A DNA stretch of 64,000 nucleotides from contig JAFSSM010000037.1 of the NCBI GenBank assembly GCA_017451025.1, positions 1-64,000 on the forward strand, in the 5' to 3' direction. The translations under genes were made by a program, and so were the position numbers. Position 1 is the stretch's first letter; the number at the start of each line of letters is the position of its first letter. This document shows, piece by piece, positions 8,746 to 51,782 of the stretch. Source of the DNA: Synergistaceae bacterium (GTDB lineage: Bacteria > Synergistota > Synergistia > Synergistales > Aminobacteriaceae). The notes below the pieces were generated by a model. It was not told where the DNA came from. It did no database searches and saw only the letters and a program-made list of their open reading frames with translations.

Positions 8746-9492
8746 TTATGCGTTTCCACAAAGGTCTGCGTCCTCCGGTAAAAACGAAGCGTTGAACATA
8801 ATATCGACTAGTTCGTCACATGATTTCTCTTCTCCCCACGCAGTCTTGAGGTAGTAATGCCAATAGAATCTCTGAGCAGGATTGCCCGAAATTTTCCATG
8901 TCTTGGAACCGCCGGGCGTGTGAAGTATGCTGTCAGGGAGTTCGTGTTTACTTCTGGGGTTGTTCCTGTTGAAGCGTTCATCTATCAGCTTGATGGAACG
9001 GTAGAACAAATTATTTAGTACATCCTGGTCAGAATATCTCATAAGGTGCACATGACGTTCAATCCATGCCATAGAGTTCTGGAACAAGTTACCGTGCCGG
9101 CGAATATTCTTCAGGTTCATGACCAGTACGCCGGAATTAATGAAAGTCTTGACGCTGCAGCCGTTAATCCAGTCCAGCAAGGCTTCGTCAGGGAGAGAGG
9201 CCGAAAACACATCGAACACTCCAGCCATACAGCAGTCATTCACATCAATATGCCATAATTCAGCAATATCAAGATTGACGACAAGGTCGCAGTCTAGATA
9301 TATAGTTTTTCTGTATAACGCACCTATATTGCATTTTCTCGCGGCTAGTTCCGTTGCTGTTGCGGTGAAATGTTTTTTATGTTCACTCACATCTACTTCG
9401 TCCCGTTTTGGGGCAGAATCAGGCGTTAGGCACCGAGCGTTGGGTGCATTATAACTCAATATCACAATACATGCTAAAATTACTCCATCCAC
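8746..9492 (-). pseudogene. 5'-truncated GT8 family glycosyltransferase
   Basis: Family GT8 (glycogenin/LgtC-like) glycosyltransferase. The metal-binding DxD region is present (KTIYLDCDLVV), as are the acceptor-side INSGVLVMNL and SDQDVLNN motifs and the C-terminal HTPGGSKTWK segment with a HYYLK end. The normal first 50-60 residues, which form the nucleotide-binding strand and loop, are missing; in their place is a short unrelated sequence that begins only 35 bases before gyrA. The segment just before the DxD is also poorly conserved. The gene was probably cut at its 5' end when this region was joined to gyrA, and is likely inactive. A shorter active variant cannot be excluded. Confidence 0.65.
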
Positions 9493-19818: not shown

Positions 19819-22800
19819 TTATCTTCTTCTGCGCAGGATGAATATTGCCGACAAGGCCAGCACAGCAAATCCTGATAAGCCTAATCCGGCATCGCATCCG
19901 CCCATCAGCAGCGCAATAATCAGCTTCGTCAAGTAAACGCTAAACGGTGTACCTGCATTCAGGAAGCCCACCATCAAGAACTCCTTAGCACCAAACTCCA
20001 GCTTCTCGCCCGAAAGTGACAGCAGTTCCCACGTGTTAAGTAATCCCGTGATGAACGATGCACTCACCTGCGAATCCTCAGTATTTCCATTGTCGTAGAG
20101 CACATATGCCTTCAAGTCTTCTGCCTTCACGCCTTCTACATACTGTTCGTACAGGTCGTCAGACAGAATAACCTTGAACACATAATACCCGTCCTTGCTG
20201 ACTACAAGAGTGTTCATCTTTCCGACAACATCACTCTCGCGGCTTGTCATCTCATCCCTCATCGCCTGAGTCGGCTCCTGCGGTTCAAGGATATTACCCT
20301 CCTGCAGCAAGTTCAACTGATCCGCAGAGAGATTCACCGTTTCCGCTATCTTCTCCATCAGTGCATCGTCAGGATATATAGGCTGAATTGTCCCCAGCCC
20401 AAGCTCATTAGGTGCAGTTACTACGCTCCTGTGAGTCCGTCCTGAACTCAGCCTGAGTGCCGCATATACTACTTTCCCGACGGGCACTTCCTTAATTTCC
20501 CGGCCGTTCTCGTCGAAGAACGCGTACTCCAATTCCTCAAGTGCAGAGGAATTTACCTCACTGCTCCCTGTTATTCCGTGAAGGGCAAGTGCCAATCCAG
20601 CATCAACGTCAAGCAGAGTCAGCCTCATCAAGTACACTCCAGACCTAACCGGCCTAATTTCCGGCAGGTTCAGAACTATGCGCAAGTTCATATCCGCAAT
20701 TGCCTGAATATCAGCACGTTCCGGCGACCACGTCTTGGAAATAATCTCTTGGGCTGTCAGCTGGTAAATCTCACTCTCTCCGAAATATGCTGCTATTCCA
20801 TTGCGAAGGACATCCGGAATTTCGAATGTGTAGTCCATGAAATTACGGCTTCCGTTGCGGTTTATGCGAGTTACCGTGATGTTTACCTGACCGGCAATTC
20901 TGGTTCCGTCGCTGTTGACTGCGTTCACTATGACTGCATAATTTCCCGCAGGAGTGTCGTATGGAATCGTTCCGGTTATCGCATTATCACGGGAGGACAG
21001 TCCTGAAACTTCAGAGACGAAGCTCCAGCTGGCGATACCCTCAGTGCTGAAAGTTATTGCAGTAACAGCAGACCCTTCCTCCACGCTCTGAGCAGCAGGA
21101 GTCAGCTCAAGGCTCGATGCATCACTGCCGACTTCGAATGACTGCGTGAAATCGTTGCTGTTGATGTTCTCGCGCTCAGACTCCGCATAACCAGCAATGC
21201 CTCCTGAATATTCAGCGTTGAGTGCCGCACGCGACACACATTCCGTAATTTCGCCGCCATACACATAACCGACAATTCCTCCGGCTGAATGTTGAGCGTT
21301 AATCCTCGAATCAGCCATAACCCTGCAATTATGGACTCTTCCGCCGGAAAGCTCGCCGACAATTCCTCCTGCCGACGAGTTCTCGCCTTCCGCCGACACA
21401 GTGCCCGAAAATGCGCAGTTCTCGATAGTTCCGTTGAGCAGTTCACGGATAATTCCGCCAGCACATTCCGTTTGCGCTGAGGCCCTAAACTCAGAATAGC
21501 CTGAAGTCTGCGTGCTTACAGCATGTACTGTGAGCGTGCGTATAGCAATTCCGTCGGAACTGACTACTCCGAACAGGCCGCTCGATATTACGACAGTGAT
21601 GGTGTGTCCGCCGCCGTCAAGATGCCCTGTGAACGGGTGAGCTTCGGTGCCTATTCCCTGCCAGTCCTGAGCGTCAGAAATATCTATGTCAACGGTTAGA
21701 GCATAATACGCTCCTGCAGGTTCGGAGCCGTTGTTGATTCTGCCGAAGAGTGCCAAAAATTCGCTGGCAGATGAAAGTTTGACGGGGTTTTCCCAAGAAC
21801 TGCCTTCAGGTATCACCGGGTCGGGTATTACCGGGTCAGGTATTACAGGGTCGGGAATCACAGGATCAGGCTCCGGCGAAGGAATATCCCTGCTGTCAAT
21901 GTCAATGTCCCTGCTTTCCGGCTGAACATCCCTGCTTGTGTTCTGATTGGTATTGTTCGACTGCCTGCCAGGTTCATATGGATTAGTCGTATTTGACGGA
22001 GACGGAGAAGGAGAAGGTACTTCACTGCTGCCGCCTGTTACCGTGATTGTCGCTGTGGCCGATACCGTACTGCTGTCGCCCAAGTCCATAACTGTCGCGG
22101 TGATGGTGTAAGTTCCGGCAGAAGAGATTGCTCCGGAAATTACGTTGTCAGATCTCGACAAGCCGGAGGGAAGCTCGCTAAAGGTAACGTCATAACCAGA
22201 GGATGAGGCATTCTCGACAGAAAGAGTTATCGGAGAAATGCTGCTTCCTGCCGCAACTGTCTGGGTTGAAGGCGTTAATGAGGCCTTCATGCCGAAATTC
22301 ACAGTAACGTCCATTGATGAGTAGCTGAACTCCTCATAGCCCGAATATCCGGCATCGTAGAAGTATGTGATGCTTTGGGGCATATCGGCCATCAGGAAAG
22401 AATAGCCCGCAGGGTCGAAGGAATAGGCGACGCTGTTTCCGTCTTTGTCCCTGACATCGACGCTGTAGACGCTTGCGGCAAATTCGGCATAGTCTGCTTG
22501 AACTCCCAGAGATGAGGCGGCATCTGCGAGGTTTATTGCGTAGGGATATTCCGAATTGCCGGACTCTTCTGGTTTGGAGAGGGTGAGTACTTGGCCGGAG
22601 AATCTGGAGGTACGATACGGTTTGCCTCTGTCGTTAGGAGTGATGTTATTGATTCTGGAATTGAGGTAGAGGTCATCGGAGTCCAGGTGTGTATTTGCGG
22701 CCAAGTCCAGAAGCGGAATGCTGTTATCGCCGCAATTCAGAACTACGAGGCTTGTGTTTCTGCTAACGTCGAGCGTCGTAATCTTGTTGCCGTAGCATAG

Positions 22801-25401
22801 GAGCCTCAAGAGCAACGGGTTGCTGCTGACGTTGAGGGCTGTGAGCTGGTTTTCCTCGCACTGAAGGTCTGCAAGTTCTGTGTTGCGGGTTACGTCGAGG
22901 ACTGAGAGCTTATTATTGCCGCATTCCAGCCTGGTCAAATTCGGAAGCATGGTAACGTCGAGAGTCGAGATGTTGTTTCTGTCGCACCACAGTGTGGTTA
23001 ATGCTGTATTGCTGGCGACATCGAGGACGCTGATGTTATTTGCAGGACAGGCTAACGTTTCCAGCTTGGTGTTCAGATGCACATCAAGCTCGGTCAGTTC
23101 ATTGTAGCCGCAGTAGAGAGCGGTTAGTTCTGTGTTCTTGCTTACGTCAAGTTCGGTCAAGTTGTTATGCCAGCAGTCAAGGGTAATAAGTTTTGTGTTG
23201 TTGGTAACGTCAAGCTCGACAATATTATTCTCGTCCAGATCCAGATATGCCAGCTCAGTGTTTGCGGTAACGTCAATCGAAGTAAGGCTGTTCCTTCTGA
23301 GATTTACGTCTGTGAGCTGAGTATTAGCAGAGAGGTCCAGTTTCCCGGAAATGTCGTTGCTGTACGCATGAATCTCCGTCAATGAGGTGAGGTACTCAAT
23401 GCCTGTGAGGTCGGACACACCTTTTGCTCTGACATTGATGCTTGTGATGGTGTCAATTTCGGTTGTGGACAGGTAGTTATCGCCGTCGCTGTCGAACTCT
23501 GTTGTGAGGTAGTCCCTGAAGACCTGGTCGGGGAAATTTGAGGAGTCGAGGGCAACGCCAGAGCTTGGGACAGGTGAAGGGTCTGGAGTAGGAGAGCTGC
23601 TTGCGTTGACGTTGATGGTTACGTCCATGTACTGGGTATCGTTTGGGTGCCTCACGTCGTAGCTGTATGCGACGGTTGATGGGTAGGACGCGAAGGAGAT
23701 GATGCCTGTGGATGGGTCGGTGTTGTGCTCAATGGTTGAGCCTTCGGAGTCTCTGATGTCGAGGCTGTGGACTCTGGAGATGTCGAAGGATGCATCGAGT
23801 GCGGATAGGTTGAGGGAGTAGGGGTAAGTGGAGTCGCCAGTGGAGTCTGCGCTTGCGATGGTGATATCTTGGGAGTAACACCATAGTGATGTCAAGATGG
23901 TGTTACTGCTTACATCTAATGCAGTCAACTTATTTTTGTAGCATTCCAAAATTGCTAAATAAGCAGTGTTATGGCTTAAATCTAAATTGGTTAGTTGGTT
24001 GTCGCTACACCACAGACCGCTTAAAATAGTGTTATAGCTCAAGTCCAAACTGGTTAATTGGTTACCGTCGCAGGACAATGCACTTAAAGCGGTATTATAG
24101 CTCACATTAAGTACAGTAAGTTGGTTGTTATCGCATTGTAAAATTGTTAAAACGGTGTTTTGGCTCACATCAAGCGTTGTTAGTTGGTTATTGTTACAGA
24201 TCAGCTCCGTCAAAGCACTGAAGTATTCTACTCCATGTAATGATGCAATACCTTTGCCGTCTACATTTATAAGCGTTACCGCAGCAATCTCCGCATCGCT
24301 CAGGTAACCGTCGCTGTCTGTATCACAATTGCTGCTCACATACGACCTGAACACATCATCCGAAAAATTCTGCTCGTTAATGGCTATCCCCGATGTCTTG
24401 TTCCCGATCGCCTGCGTCGCAGCACCAACCATGAACTTGTTACCGCTCAGCACAGGGTCCGAATATTCAGCATAACCAATAATCCCGCCTACCCATCTCG
24501 GCGCAGAAAGTGTCGCGTCAGAACTGCAATTGATGATCGCCGCTATAGCGGTACTGCTGGACTTGTACCCAGCTATTCCGCCGACGCTACCGTCTGTCTG
24601 GTTGTCGTCAGTTGAGAGAGGCGTTGTTACGTTCGCACCGGCCTCTACAACACAATTTCTGATCGTGCCGTTCTTCAGCACCGCCGCAATTCCTCCGGTT
24701 ACGAACCTTCCCGTTACAGTCGCACCGGAAGCTATTGTGCAGTTCTCGATAAGCCCGCCCTCAAGATAACCCACAATTCCGCCGGCCTTCTGTCCAACTT
24801 CATACTTGCTGGAAAGCCACGATTCTACATTTGCAGTTACGGTTCCGCTCACCGTGCAATTCCTGATTATGCCGCCCGACGGAAGCGTGTGCGCAATTCC
24901 CGCCACCACATAAGCATCACCGTAACCTATACCTACCGTGCCGCTGAATGTGCAGTTCTCGATTATTCCTTGAGCAAGCTCAAACACAAAACCTGCTCCG
25001 TGATTATCGTACGAGAATTTTCCTCTGAGCGTCAGATTCCGAATCGCCGCGTCCGTTCCTGTCGTGGTTATCTTGTTGAACACTCCGCCGTCAGAATAAT
25101 AGATGTCCATGCTTAACGTGTGGCCGTTGCCGTCAAGATGGCCTCTGAAATGCGGAGACTGCCACTCCTTCATTCGCGGAAGCACTATATCAGCGTTCAG
25201 CTTGTAGTACTTTCCTGCATCGTCCGATCCGGCAAGAATCCTGTTCCTAAACAGCATAAAGTCGCTCGACGTGTTCAGTACGTACGCCGTCTCCCAGCTG
25301 TCCCCGCTGTTGCCCTCGTCGTAATATGCCGCCGAAGCAATCCCGCTGAAAATTGCCAGCAACATCATTACTGCGGCAAACATTACCCGCTTGATGTTCA
25401 T
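19819..25401 (-). CDS. giant secreted LRR/GLUG surface protein with Synergist-CTERM
   Basis: Exported surface protein of 1860 residues, probably for adhesion or binding of host or microbial glycans. Order: signal peptide (1-24); GLUG-like repeats with many GGIVGY and ENCTFSG units (about 60-330); a Ca-binding EF-hand-like loop DTDSDGYLSDAEI (about 358); leucine-rich repeats of the LDVSxNTxLxxLxCxxNxL type (390-510); a second loop FDSDGDNYLS and a second longer LRR array (630-930); an Ig-like domain (1030-1130); a Pro-rich PDPVI linker (1177-1199); a second GLUG block (1207-1420); another Ig-like domain; and a C-terminal MGGCDAG motif, hydrophobic helix and RRRR. The two EF-hand/LRR/beta modules look like an internal duplication. 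The tail predicts sorting to the cell surface. Confidence 0.9.
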   Translation of the reverse strand: MNIKRVMFAAVMMLLAIFSGIASAAYYDEGNSGDSWETAYVLNTSSDFMLFRNRILAGSDDAGKYYKLNADIVLPRMKEWQSPHFRGHLDGNGHTLSMDIYYSDGGVFNKITTTGTDAAIRNLTLRGKFSYDNHGAGFVFELAQGIIENCTFSGTVGIGYGDAYVVAGIAHTLPSGGIIRNCTVSGTVTANVESWLSSKYEVGQKAGGIVGYLEGGLIENCTIASGATVTGRFVTGGIAAVLKNGTIRNCVVEAGANVTTPLSTDDNQTDGSVGGIAGYKSSSTAIAAIINCSSDATLSAPRWVGGIIGYAEYSDPVLSGNKFMVGAATQAIGNKTSGIAINEQNFSDDVFRSYVSSNCDTDSDGYLSDAEIAAVTLINVDGKGIASLHGVEYFSALTELICNNNQLTTLDVSQNTVLTILQCDNNQLTVLNVSYNTALSALSCDGNQLTSLDLSYNTILSGLWCSDNQLTNLDLSHNTAYLAILECYKNKLTALDVSSNTILTSLWCYSQDITIASADSTGDSTYPYSLNLSALDASFDISRVHSLDIRDSEGSTIEHNTDPSTGIISFASYPSTVAYSYDVRHPNDTQYMDVTINVNASSSPTPDPSPVPSSGVALDSSNFPDQVFRDYLTTEFDSDGDNYLSTTEIDTITSINVRAKGVSDLTGIEYLTSLTEIHAYSNDISGKLDLSANTQLTDVNLRRNSLTSIDVTANTELAYLDLDENNIVELDVTNNTKLITLDCWHNNLTELDVSKNTELTALYCGYNELTELDVHLNTKLETLACPANNISVLDVASNTALTTLWCDRNNISTLDVTMLPNLTRLECGNNKLSVLDVTRNTELADLQCEENQLTALNVSSNPLLLRLLCYGNKITTLDVSRNTSLVVLNCGDNSIPLLDLAANTHLDSDDLYLNSRINNITPNDRGKPYRTSRFSGQVLTLSKPEESGNSEYPYAINLADAASSLGVQADYAEFAASVYSVDVRDKDGNSVAYSFDPAGYSFLMADMPQSITYFYDAGYSGYEEFSYSSMDVTVNFGMKASLTPSTQTVAAGSSISPITLSVENASSSGYDVTFSELPSGLSRSDNVISGAISSAGTYTITATVMDLGDSSTVSATATITVTGGSSEVPSPSPSPSNTTNPYEPGRQSNNTNQNTSRDVQPESRDIDIDSRDIPSPEPDPVIPDPVIPDPVIPDPVIPEGSSWENPVKLSSASEFLALFGRINNGSEPAGAYYALTVDIDISDAQDWQGIGTEAHPFTGHLDGGGHTITVVISSGLFGVVSSDGIAIRTLTVHAVSTQTSGYSEFRASAQTECAGGIIRELLNGTIENCAFSGTVSAEGENSSAGGIVGELSGGRVHNCRVMADSRINAQHSAGGIVGYVYGGEITECVSRAALNAEYSGGIAGYAESERENINSNDFTQSFEVGSDASSLELTPAAQSVEEGSAVTAITFSTEGIASWSFVSEVSGLSSRDNAITGTIPYDTPAGNYAVIVNAVNSDGTRIAGQVNITVTRINRNGSRNFMDYTFEIPDVLRNGIAAYFGESEIYQLTAQEIISKTWSPERADIQAIADMNLRIVLNLPEIRPVRSGVYLMRLTLLDVDAGLALALHGITGSSEVNSSALEELEYAFFDENGREIKEVPVGKVVYAALRLSSGRTHRSVVTAPNELGLGTIQPIYPDDALMEKIAETVNLSADQLNLLQEGNILEPQEPTQAMRDEMTSRESDVVGKMNTLVVSKDGYYVFKVILSDDLYEQYVEGVKAEDLKAYVLYDNGNTEDSQVSASFITGLLNTWELLSLSGEKLEFGAKEFLMVGFLNAGTPFSVYLTKLIIALLMGGCDAGLGLSGFAVLALSAIFILRRRR
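21809..21870 (-). repeat. four 15-bp repeats coding PDPVI
   Basis: Four in-frame 15-bp units code a Pro-Asp-Pro-Val-Ile linker in the giant surface protein. They have small third-base differences, so this is a coding repeat subject to length variation, not a frame switch. Confidence 0.85.
22640..24240 (-). repeat. leucine-rich repeat arrays in the giant surface protein
   Basis: Two LRR arrays with a unit near 21 residues (63 bp) lie at about 23880-24240 and 22640-23450. The first is clearly richer in A+T than the second and than the rest of the gene, as if the two arrays had different histories. Confidence 0.75.
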
Positions 25402-43437: not shown

Positions 43438-44514
43438 ATGTACAACACAATCATCAACGGCGAGACTATTCACGAAATGCAGCAGCTCCCCGATAAATCC
43501 ATAGACCTCATTTTCGCCGACCCTCCCTACTTCATGCAGACAAACGGTATCCTCAACAGACCCGAAGGCACAGAGTTTCACGGATGTAATGATGACTGGG
43601 ATAAATTCACCTCATTGAGTGATTACGCCCTGTTCTCCTGCAAGTGGCTTGCTGAATGCCGCAGACTCCTCAAACCCTCCGGCTCAGTCTGGGTCATCGG
43701 ATCAATGCAGTGTATCTACACTCTCGGGAACGTCATGCAGGGATTAGGCTTCTGGTTCATCAACGATATTATCTGGCAAAAATCTAACCCCACACCCAAC
43801 TTCACCGGTTCAAGGCTCAACAATTCGCACGAGACCCTGCTCTGGGCAGTCAAGTACAAACACGCAAAGTTCACCTTCCACTACAAGACCGCCAAGCACC
43901 TAAACGGCGGCCGTCAGCTCGGCTCAGTCTGGACGTTTCCTGTGTGTTCCGGCAACGAGAGGCTCAGAGATTCAGAAGGACGCAAGCTCCACAATACCCA
44001 GAAACCTTTGGCTCTTCTTGAGCGTATAATAGCAATCTCGTCGAACTTAGGGGATGTCGTGCTGGACCCCTTCGGCGGAACAATGACCACTGCGGCGGCG
44101 GCCAAGAAACTTGGACGCAAATTCATCATGATTGAGCGCGAAAAGACTTACTGCGAATACGGGCAAAGAAGGCTTGAAGAAGTGAGCTTTGAGGATTCGG
44201 ATATTGCTCGTGCTGTGTTTGACCGGAAGCCCTTGCGCGTAACTATGCAGGAAATGATTCGTGAGGGAGCGTTCACTGCTGGCGAATGGTTCACATTGAA
44301 GGACGGCAAGCCCCGCGCACAGCTCCAGCCCGACGGTAAATTGCTCTATGACGGCGAAATTCTGGACATGCATTCCTGTGCGGCGAAAGCCAGGAACGTC
44401 AAGGCCAAGAGGCTCAACGGATTCGATGTCTGGCATGTAATCAGGCAGGGCAAGGCTGTTAGTATTTCTGAGGTCAGGGAGAACTTCAGGGCAGGACTTG
44501 CGCGGGAAAACTGA
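43438..44514 (+). CDS. ccrM: CcrM-like orphan DNA adenine methyltransferase
   Basis: N6-adenine DNA methyltransferase of the beta class (HinfI/CcrM type, GANTC in characterised members). The catalytic motif is DPPY (residues 31-34 region, FADPPYFM), and the SAM-binding motif DPFGGTMTTAAAAKKLGR lies C-terminal of it, the beta-class order. The last 85 residues match the extra DNA-recognition domain of CcrM (EMIREGAFTAGEWF, KLLYDGEILDMHSCAA, GFDVWHVIR). No restriction endonuclease is beside it, which makes a cell-cycle or gene-control role more likely than restriction. Its stop abuts the convergent histidine kinase gene. Confidence 0.9.
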   Translation: MYNTIINGETIHEMQQLPDKSIDLIFADPPYFMQTNGILNRPEGTEFHGCNDDWDKFTSLSDYALFSCKWLAECRRLLKPSGSVWVIGSMQCIYTLGNVMQGLGFWFINDIIWQKSNPTPNFTGSRLNNSHETLLWAVKYKHAKFTFHYKTAKHLNGGRQLGSVWTFPVCSGNERLRDSEGRKLHNTQKPLALLERIIAISSNLGDVVLDPFGGTMTTAAAAKKLGRKFIMIEREKTYCEYGQRRLEEVSFEDSDIARAVFDRKPLRVTMQEMIREGAFTAGEWFTLKDGKPRAQLQPDGKLLYDGEILDMHSCAAKARNVKAKRLNGFDVWHVIRQGKAVSISEVRENFRAGLAREN

Positions 44515-46569: not shown

Positions 46570-47136
46570 TTACATGCCTATCAATTTCTCGACAGGTCTT
46601 AGGGCTAAAATCGTCTCGTTAATCACGTCATCAAGGGGCATGTTCATTTTTTCCGCGCCCTGCTTGATGATTTCACGGTTCACTCCGCGAGCAAATGCCT
46701 TATCCTTCCATTTCTTTTTGACGGACTTGACTTCGAGGTCTGCGAGGGATTTTGAGGGTCTGACCAGTCCGGCAGTGATGATTAGGCCGGTGAGTTCGTC
46801 AATAGTGAAGAGTGTGCGCTCGAGGTTATTGGAGGGTTCAACGTCGGTGCAGATTCCCCAGCCGTGAGACTGGACAGCATGAATGAGGCTGTCGTCGGCT
46901 CCGATTTCCCTGAGCATGTCGGGTGCCAGGTGGCAATGACGCTCTGGGGTAGTTGTCGTCTGTTCCCAGTCAATATCGTGGAGCAGGCCGACAATTCCCC
47001 AGAGGTCGGGGTCTTCGTGGAACAGCTCTGCGAAGTGGCGCATAGTTGCTTCGACGGCGTAAGCGTGGTGAATGTGAGATTCTTCTTTGTTGTATTTGCG
47101 CAAAAGTTCTAGTGCCTGTTCTCTAGTCGGTATCAA
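46570..47136 (-). CDS. HD-domain hydrolase
   Basis: Putative metal-dependent phosphohydrolase of the HD superfamily (188 residues). Metal ligands can be seen as HHAYAVEATMRHF, the HD pair in GLLHDIDW, and HCHLAP; a further region is LFTIDELTGLI. This compact HD family is common in Firmicutes and Synergistota, and its substrate is not known. Its ATG overlaps the stop of the GT2 glycosyltransferase by four bases, so the two are translated together. Confidence 0.85.
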   Translation of the reverse strand: MIPTREQALELLRKYNKEESHIHHAYAVEATMRHFAELFHEDPDLWGIVGLLHDIDWEQTTTTPERHCHLAPDMLREIGADDSLIHAVQSHGWGICTDVEPSNNLERTLFTIDELTGLIITAGLVRPSKSLADLEVKSVKKKWKDKAFARGVNREIIKQGAEKMNMPLDDVINETILALRPVEKLIGM

Positions 47137-48125
47137 TTAATGCATTCTCCCTTCAATTTTTGTTTTAACCATTTAAGTTTGTAGAACAGTTTGGAACATT
47201 TCTTGTTTAAAGCATATTTCAGCGGAAAATATATCCAAGCTGCCGGCAGAATCAATATATTCCAGAATACCCGCAAAGGCTGTAATGAGACTAGCTTTAA
47301 CCATTCCGAGAAAAACTTTCTGTATTGGCCGCAAGCTGGATACTCTTTTATTGTCCTCCTCAACCTAAACCAGTACGTGTATGGATCTTGTGTTAAGTAG
47401 CTTCTATGTCTCTCGGTAATAATCTCATGAGCCGCAAGTACCCTAAATTTACCTACGTTCACATGTGCTCTGCCTCCTCCCTGATAAACATTGTCAAGCA
47501 CTTCATCTACGAAAGCAAAACGGCAAATTTTAGCTAGCCTGAGCCATGCTTCCCAGTCCTCAAAAGCTGGCATAGTTTCGTCAAAACCTCCAGCTTCTGC
47601 AAGATATTTAGAACGTATCATAGCCATTATGTCAACAAAATTCTTTCTAAGAAGATTGGTGTAAACATTGCCTTCATATTTCTTGCTGGTATGCCTCATT
47701 AAACGTTTGTTGCCTGTGTCCTCATCGATAATATAACTATTACAGTAAACCAGACCAGTATCTTCACTGCACTCTTTGAACTTAGCGAGCTGTTTCTCCA
47801 ATTTTTCCGGCAGCCATTCATCATCATCATCGAGGTACGCAATAAATTCATGCCCCCCCCCCCCCCCCGCGATTTCTAGAGCTGTATTCCTCGCAGCACT
47901 TACGCCGCGATTATGCTCATGAGGCACATAGCGTATCCTGCTGTCCACAGCCGCATAACCCTTAACCATCTTCCTGACCTCTCCGCGCAGCTCATAATCA
48001 GACGGACTGTCATCCACTACTACACATTCCCAGTCCGTATATGTCTGGGCAATCACGCTCCTCAATGCCCGCTCAACCATCGCAGGAGCACGCTTGTATG
48101 TCGTTATAGCCGCAAGTACCATCAA
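47133..48125 (-). CDS. GT2 glycosyltransferase with a poly-G tract
   Basis: Family GT2 (GT-A fold) glycosyltransferase, expected to add a sugar to a surface glycan at the cytoplasmic membrane face. The donor-binding strand is VVVDDSP, the metal site is the DDDDEW motif and the acceptor-side acid lies in FEDWEAWLRLA. A C-terminal region rich in Lys and aromatic residues probably contacts the membrane. Just before DDDDEW the gene has 16 consecutive G (plus strand C, 47853-47868), coding five extra Gly that relatives of this motif usually lack. In the present state the frame is open; a 17th G would give TGA two codons later. The start has only a weak site; it is divergent from cbiK. Confidence 0.9.
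   Translation of the reverse strand: MMVLAAITTYKRAPAMVERALRSVIAQTYTDWECVVVDDSPSDYELRGEVRKMVKGYAAVDSRIRYVPHEHNRGVSAARNTALEIAGGGGGHEFIAYLDDDDEWLPEKLEKQLAKFKECSEDTGLVYCNSYIIDEDTGNKRLMRHTSKKYEGNVYTNLLRKNFVDIMAMIRSKYLAEAGGFDETMPAFEDWEAWLRLAKICRFAFVDEVLDNVYQGGGRAHVNVGKFRVLAAHEIITERHRSYLTQDPYTYWFRLRRTIKEYPACGQYRKFFSEWLKLVSLQPLRVFWNILILPAAWIYFPLKYALNKKCSKLFYKLKWLKQKLKGECIN
47853..47868 (-). repeat. 16-base G homopolymer in the GT2 gene
   Basis: A run of 16 C on the plus strand (16 G on the coding strand) lies in the middle of the catalytic domain. Its length is far beyond what other coding runs in this window show. Slippage by one base would shift the frame; the present length keeps it open. Confidence 0.95.
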
Positions 48126-48216
48126 TCTATCTCCTCATTGAAATTTATCAGTATTATATATTATTTCGCGAAGTGTATAATCTCTCTTACACATAAACTT
48201 TTCAGGAGGTCTATCC

Positions 48217-50732: not shown

Positions 50733-51782
50733 TTACCTTTTGCGTGCTACAAAACCTGCAAGAGCTGCAAGAGCCAGTGCGCCGAAGCCTGCGTCGCAGC
50801 CGCCGCCTGAGCTGCCTACATCGTTGTCAGGCTCAGTGTTAGTGCCGGGCGTGTCAGTGCCAGGCGTGTCAGTGCCGGGAGTGTCAGTACCAGGAGTATC
50901 AGTGCCAGGAGTGTCGGTGCCGGGCGTGTCAGTACCAGGGGTATCTGTGCCAGGAGTGTCGGTGCCGGGCGTGTCAGTACCAGGGGTATCTGTGCCAGGA
51001 GTGTCGGTGCCGGGCGTGTCAGTACCAGGGGTATCTGTGCCAGGAGTCTCCGCATCAGCTACCGTAACGATAGGCTCGTAGGTATTGCCTGCTTCCATGT
51101 ATGCCGCTACGTTGACTGTAGTGCCTGCAGGAGGAACCGTCGTAAGCTCATTGCCGTCTGCATCGAGGAATGAGTAGTCTTTCTCCTCAGGTGCTGCGGT
51201 CGTCGGTGCTGCATCTGTATCATCGTCTGCGGCAAAGAAGGACACTGCTGCGGCTCTGGGGTTGAGCATCAGGAAAAGCAAGTTGCCAACTGTCAGAGCA
51301 CTCATATCAAGACCGAAGACCTTAACGCCCGTGCTGGTGATTACGAGTACAGGGAGAACCAGTCCGATTCTTCTGCCGCTTCTGGTGATTGAATCACGGG
51401 TTGCTGCAGGTACATCGCTGGGACTGCGCGGAGCAAGACCTGCGAGTGAAAGTGCCTCAACGGGTGCATTGGCGAACCTTCCGCCTAACGTTGCGAGGAT
51501 TGCCTGAACAACTGCGGGGTTGCTGAGGTTGAGTGTCGGGGCTACGGGTACAACCGCTACGCCTGCGGGTGTGTCAGTGCCGGGTGTGTCAGTACCAGGT
51601 GTATCGGTGCCTGGGGTGTCTGTGCCGGGGGTGTCGGTGCCGTTGTTGCTGTTGCTGTTGCCGTTGCCGCTGTAGGGATTAGATGGAGTAGTACTGCCAC
51701 CATGCCCGGAATCTGCCGCAAATGCGCTCCCTGCCGCAACAAGAAGCATAACTACTACGAATAATGCCAAAAACTTCTTCAT
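50733..51782 (-). CDS. TDTPG-repeat surface protein with Synergist-CTERM
   Basis: Exported surface protein of 349 residues. Signal peptide 1-22 (KKFLALFVVVMLLVA, cleaved near AFAAD). An Asn/Ser/Gly-rich start leads to five TDTPG-type repeats (about 46-70), then a non-repeated domain of about 170 residues, then thirteen more TDTPG repeats (about 246-310). The end is SGGGCDAG, a hydrophobic helix and ARKR, a full Synergist-CTERM tail. The Thr/Asp/Pro stalks probably extend the middle domain from the cell surface and may carry O-linked sugar. The middle domain is unrecognised. The tail fits that of the giant protein at 19819-25401. Confidence 0.85.
   Translation of the reverse strand: MKKFLALFVVVMLLVAAGSAFAADSGHGGSTTPSNPYSGNGNSNSNNGTDTPGTDTPGTDTPGTDTPGTDTPAGVAVVPVAPTLNLSNPAVVQAILATLGGRFANAPVEALSLAGLAPRSPSDVPAATRDSITRSGRRIGLVLPVLVITSTGVKVFGLDMSALTVGNLLFLMLNPRAAAVSFFAADDDTDAAPTTAAPEEKDYSFLDADGNELTTVPPAGTTVNVAAYMEAGNTYEPIVTVADAETPGTDTPGTDTPGTDTPGTDTPGTDTPGTDTPGTDTPGTDTPGTDTPGTDTPGTDTPGTDTPGTDTPGTNTEPDNDVGSSGGGCDAGFGALALAALAGFVARKR
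50851..51045 (-). repeat. thirteen 15-bp TDTPG repeats, with 45-bp higher order
   Basis: Thirteen head-to-tail 15-bp units code TDTPG. The last nine are grouped as three identical 45-bp blocks (50911-51045), which suggests recent expansion by three units at a time. All changes keep the reading frame. Confidence 0.93.
51571..51645 (-). repeat. five 15-bp TDTPG-type repeats
   Basis: Five 15-bp units of the same kind near the N-terminus of the surface protein, more diverged from one another than the C-terminal array. Confidence 0.85.

Follow-up and report, generated by a model that had tools for sequence, protein, structure and literature searches.

A G16 tract in a predicted glycosyltransferase gene

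Is a run of 16 consecutive G inside a predicted glycosyltransferase gene of a Synergistaceae bacterium a switch for that gene, or does it have a more ordinary origin? Phase variation through simple repeats has been described mostly in a small number of host-adapted pathogens, and slipped-strand mispairing on a G run is an established mode of it in Campylobacter, Helicobacter, and Neisseria. In the window (the whole stretch of DNA that we analyzed, 64 kb), positions 47853–47868 of the + strand are exactly 16 C, and hence the coding (−) strand carries 16 G (G16). This is the only run of at least 9 in the window.

The tract lies in a GT2 glycosyltransferase gene (47133–48122, − strand) that encodes 329 aa from an ATG at 48122, which we took as the start in place of the TTG at 48125 given in the ORF listing. 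The product matches PF00535 (3.3e-29; 102.4 bits, above the curated cut-off of 23.3 bits), and GAGGAG at 48131–48136 (−) reads as the likely ribosome-binding site. The tract occupies nt 255–270 of the gene, at codon 85, and encodes five Gly by means of five GGG codons that follow a GCG. In an AlphaFold model (mean pLDDT 89), these residues form the turn between helix 74–88 and strand 94–99, and the strand leads to DDDDEW (47814–47831, −), a DXD-type metal site that is kept across the homologue alignment. The turn is a site of loop-length variation among homologues. The nearest solved chains are those of chondroitin synthase (2z86 and 2z87) and PglI (9jma); the GT2 of the window resembles the K4 chondroitin synthase 2z86 and PglI in its catalytic domain and DXD-type motif, but unlike them it has a poly-Gly insertion in the turn preceding the DXD strand. 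The sequence-only reading had placed the tract in the catalytic domain just before DDDDEW, which the coordinates bear out. Its further claim that related enzymes usually lack these Gly residues holds outside the genus (the Lachnospiraceae loop is shorter) but not within it, where about half of the orthologues bear a tract.

With 16 G, the ORF is intact and its frame is open. Simulated changes in tract length gave products of 140 aa for G15, 329 aa for G16, and 91 aa for G17, the last of these in agreement with the earlier prediction that a seventeenth G would bring a TGA into frame two codons past the tract; G13 and G19 also gave a full-length product. The TTG start of an HD-domain protein gene (46570–47136, −; PF01966, E 5e-4, just under cut-off) overlaps the GT2 stop, and so translation of the HD gene may be coupled to the state of GT2.

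We compared orthologues in 43 genomes of the genus and found poly-G at the same codon position in eight GT2 copies, including that of the window, with lengths of G9, G9, G9, G10, G12, G13, G14, and G16. Four of these copies are in frame (16 G in the window's genome, G000; 12 G in genome G004, where a further in-frame TGA lies downstream; 13 G in genome G017; and 9 G in genome G033). Three are out of frame (14 G in genome G031 and 9 G in genomes G012 and G028): the match breaks at residue ~84–93, and apart from that break the halves on either side stay open and conserved. The eighth copy, with 10 G at a contig edge in genome G061, was given no frame state in this count, and genome G035 carries an in-frame run of 7 G. 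Close copies that have no tract are found in genomes G002, G003, G011, G032, and G034, and as a second copy in G017. The tandem copies of G017 (a 100/100 clade) differ by the tract, which was thus gained or lost after the duplication; the GT2 gene tree is mostly unresolved, so that gains and losses of the tract are not countable. Relatives in named records come from Synergistaceae or Synergistales MAGs from goat, sheep, reindeer, and red deer, and some of them have a tract at the same place. These differences in on/off length are differences between species, not strains. The recurrence of the tract at one site, in frame in some orthologues and frameshifted between open halves in others, supports the proposal, made from the sequence, that this is a phase-variable glycosyltransferase.

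Poly-G tracts across the genome

The genome (2.35 Mb in 62 contigs, 97.6% complete) contains 59 poly-G runs of at least 9, ranging from G9 to G23. A first-order Markov model of the whole genome predicts 5.6 runs of at least 9 per genome, 0.06 of at least 12, and 0.0002 of at least 16. In a 345 kb sample, G/C runs of lengths 3–8 numbered 5168, 995, 191, 32, 3, and 0 (the sample is weighted to tract regions, and the zero at length 8 is strict only there), and those of lengths 9–14 numbered 1, 7, 7, 14, 8, and 9. The distribution is bimodal, with a second mode that peaks at G12; no second mode was seen for A/T runs in the 345 kb sampled.

Approximately 41 of the 59 tracts are intragenic, as judged from ORFs and Pfam, the assignments to genes and gene classes having been made by hand and being approximate. 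Where at least 40 codons are open on both sides of the tract (33 cases), 9 tracts are in frame and 24 are out of frame, which is close to the one third in frame expected for random lengths; long homopolymers may be off by one in short-read assemblies, and this proportion is safer than individual on/off calls, which are unsure. Six tracts are found no more than 60 bp from a contig end, compared with ~0.2 expected from 124 ends, and this excess fits heterogeneous tract lengths as well as the ordinary difficulty of assembling homopolymers.

In a plain tally by Pfam, the tract-bearing genes belong chiefly to surface polysaccharide and lipid biosynthesis. They include glycosyltransferases (GT2, GT4, GT6, and GT11), other glycan genes (capsule synthesis, LicD, FkbM methyltransferases, and a sugar epimerase), and acyltransferases (PglD/hexapeptide, GNAT, and acyltransferase 3). 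Tracts are also present in genes for ATP-grasp, AMP-ligase, KAS III, radical SAM, and beta-helix surface proteins, and at the 3′ end of a few signalling, transport, and metabolic genes. The GT2 tract is one of 59 in the genome, mostly in surface-glycan genes, a larger scale than the sequence-only reading had proposed.

Several Pfam domains (for example, GT11, AMP-ligase, KAS III, and PglD) are split at the tract into two frames, which indicates a single gene in an out-of-frame state. The GT11 model matches over 36–222 on one side and 239–297 on the other, PglD_N is separated from the hexapeptide domain, and AMP-binding is separated from AMP-binding_C. The match continues in frame across the tract in the epimerase (1–101 and 107–239), an acyltransferase (3–155 and 171–300), ATPgrasp_ST, and the GT2 of the window. 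The epimerase tract is G14 in this genome and an out-of-frame G10 in genome G012, and the six other epimerase orthologues read have no tract.

One member of the set of 59, a G12 run in a CDP-alcohol phosphotransferase-like gene (C23:65160–65171; L076), lies 1.2 kb past the end of the window and is out of frame in the assembly. At C35:1561–1573 (L083), the promoter-like arrangement TTGACA-G13-ATAGGG-TAGAAT is followed by AGGAGG, and this tract is possibly a promoter-spacer switch like that of Neisseria porA. As a general role for the G runs, that of a −35/−10 promoter spacer was rejected, being plausible only for a few apparently intergenic tracts. We also rejected the idea that the tracts are abundant because mismatch repair has been lost: this genome and the sampled genus-mates carry mutS, and slippage may accordingly proceed more slowly than it does in Campylobacter.

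A sequence motif upstream of the tracts

A motif search by EM on the 25-mers upstream of 207 tracts (59 from this genome and 148 from genus-mates) yielded T[AC][CA]GTAAWWT on the G strand, with GTAA ~13 nt upstream of the run and mostly at −17 to −12. The motif was fitted to ~80% of the 207 pooled genus tracts, which include orthologous tracts of different species and are to that extent non-independent, and its log-likelihood ratio was 524, compared with 77–92 for composition-keeping shuffles. In this genome alone, GTAA is found at −18 to −9 of 27–33% of runs of at least 9 and of 2–3% of runs of 4–8, and the motif is at background level beside G4–G8 runs. Likewise, CGTA is found at −19 to −9 of 19 of the 59 tracts in this genome, against 1 of 59 further upstream. 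TACGTA occurs 4–14 nt before G9 in 31 of the 43 genus genomes, the reversed pattern in almost none, and GTAA occurs 7–12 nt before G10 in most genomes of the genus and in few from the other genera of the order. Outside the genus, the motif is nearly absent.

The motif falls in all three reading frames (13, 10, and 7 cases by codon phase) and in unrelated genes, for which reason we rejected the idea that it reflects a constraint on the protein, and it also precedes apparently intergenic tracts. A dyad (GTAA-WW-TTAC) was rejected as a general rule for the flank, since the best six-base arms scored only slightly above shuffles. Insertion of motif and tract together as a cassette was not supported: in the GT2 pair of genome G017 and in the epimerase orthologues, the net insertion approximates the G run alone and the upstream codons are replaced. 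Tractless epimerase orthologues lack the motif, and other codons stand where the motif-coded ones would be. The flank of the GT2 tract in the window, AGCTCTAGAAATCGC, contains no clear copy, and thus the motif is not required for a tract.

The motif may be a binding site, a slippage-favouring context, or a recoding signal. A tentative and rather doubtful possibility is programmed slippage: a dedicated system specific to the genus would recognize the motif and create, maintain, or hypermutate poly-G in arbitrary genes, and contingency loci would then be seeded and tuned by that system instead of arising by chance. If the motif affects the birth or the mutation rate of tracts, the question of whether bacteria use signals in cis to seed or set contingency loci would become directly testable.

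Long poly-G runs are rare outside the genus, with a few exceptions, and we therefore rejected the view that poly-G characterizes the order as a whole. Runs of at least 11 outside the genus number 33 in genome G149, 23 in G139, 16 in G142, and 11 each in G133 and G143; some of these sets may be separate phasomes and others a GC-rich tail. The runs of genome G057 are mostly G9, with GC-rich flanks and without TACGTA. Three genomes of the same genus (G015, G020, and G066) have no poly-G run of at least 11 and offer a natural contrast for correlates of the tracts.

Alternative origins and relation to known systems

Were the Gly residues a stable linker, an in-frame expansion of neutral or structural character without switching, we would expect a loop that tolerates changes in length and copies that are in frame, as are the window copy, three other GT2 copies, and the copy with 7 G. 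This explanation is very unlikely, because the Gly residues are encoded by GGG only over 15 bases, with no mixed codons, because three orthologues are frameshifted at the tract, and because most other tracts of the genome are out of frame. The out-of-frame copies might be dead genes, a reading favoured by the additional in-frame TGA in the GT2 of genome G004. The two halves of the G031, G012, and G028 copies, however, are otherwise intact, and dozens of genes are broken at poly-G and not elsewhere, all of which makes pseudogene decay highly improbable.

The compared genomes all seem to be MAGs and some tracts lie at contig ends, as would be expected of a sequencing or assembly artefact such as the no-signal poly-G of two-colour Illumina chemistry stitched into contigs; the G23 run at the end of contig C25 may be inflated in this way. 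Internal tracts, in contrast, are flanked by coding sequence on both sides and by a specific DNA motif, and lengths centre on 12 and not on read-end lengths. The same site carries a tract in genomes that belong to different species and were assembled separately, and on that account we consider an artefact extremely unlikely. It is also conceivable that slippage of RNA polymerase or the ribosome, tuned by the upstream motif, lets some full-length protein be made whatever the length of the tract. Both polymerases and ribosomes can slip on homopolymers (PMC3711429), and on the coding strand the motif comes 5′ of the G run, where a recoding stimulator could be placed. Such recoding is nevertheless improbable, as the motif is also found before seemingly intergenic tracts, one of them the promoter-like tract at C35:1561, where frame is irrelevant, and tract length differs between species.

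From the sequence comparisons, the G16 tract is very probably a translational contingency locus, a slip-prone on/off switch of GT2. DNA polymerase would slip on G16 at high frequency, and the run would gain or lose one base or a few. Full-length GT2 with a poly-Gly turn of adjustable length before the DXD site would result when the run has 3n+1 G (G13, G16, and G19), and other lengths would give fragments of ~90 or ~140 aa that lack a working catalytic domain. GT2 would switch randomly between on and off, as would some forty other genes with poly-G, most of which act in the synthesis of surface polysaccharides and lipids, and a clonal population would come to contain many combinatorial surface types. 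We infer that slippage is the cause, that switching is reversible within a population, and that a surface phenotype follows from it.

In the portion available to us of a survey of the Campylobacter phasome (PMC6321876), 77% of poly-G/C tracts lie in ORFs, C is on the coding strand in only 5%, lengths peak at 9–10, and strains have 5–81 loci. The Synergistaceae set is similar in that poly-G is on the coding strand, mostly intragenic, and in surface-glycan genes, with tens of loci per genome. It differs in belonging to another phylum and in its longer tracts (mode G12 versus 9–10), and the upstream motif and mutS are features of the Synergistaceae set, no motif being mentioned in that portion of PMC6321876. 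As far as the available portions of PMC5084427 and PMC3639595 go, Neisseria offers a likeness in on/off switching by poly-G within ORFs and, in PorA, a counterpart of the few promoter-spacer-like tracts found here; it differs in phylum and in the genes, which are unrelated, and the Synergistaceae tracts are known from assemblies alone. A search of the open literature, with most subscription journals outside its scope, found no report of repeat-mediated phase variation in Synergistota; among the Synergistetes papers retrieved, one describes DNA inversions and another surveys frame transitions. Together, these comparisons suggest that poly-G switching is a known mechanism that appears here in a new lineage.

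A phasome of ~59 poly-G loci in uncultured gut bacteria of a Synergistaceae genus would bring phase variation to apparent commensals and to another phylum. It suggests that a little-studied phylum would reshuffle its cell surface as Campylobacter and Neisseria do, and it would point to phage or host pressure on that surface. It also cautions that, in assemblies of this kind, tracts split genes.

The window contains further features that touch on DNA modification and the cell surface. An adenine DNA methyltransferase (43438–44514, +) resembles CcrM (NF050803, 393 bits, under the cut-off of 830), and no restriction gene was seen next to it. By eye, the N-terminal part of a GT8-like ORF (8746–9492, −) looks scrambled, and this ORF may represent a glycosyltransferase that has decayed or suffered a frameshift. 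A protein of 1860 aa (19819–25401, −) combines repeats of leucine-rich and DVSxNTxLxxL types with a GGCDAG-type C-terminus that resembles those of Synerg-CTERM proteins. Finally, the gene at 50733–51782 (−) contains an in-frame tandem array with a 15 bp unit (45 bp higher-order) that encodes repeated PGTDT, together with a Synerg-CTERM sorting domain (TIGR04564), and its product is possibly a length-variable surface stalk.
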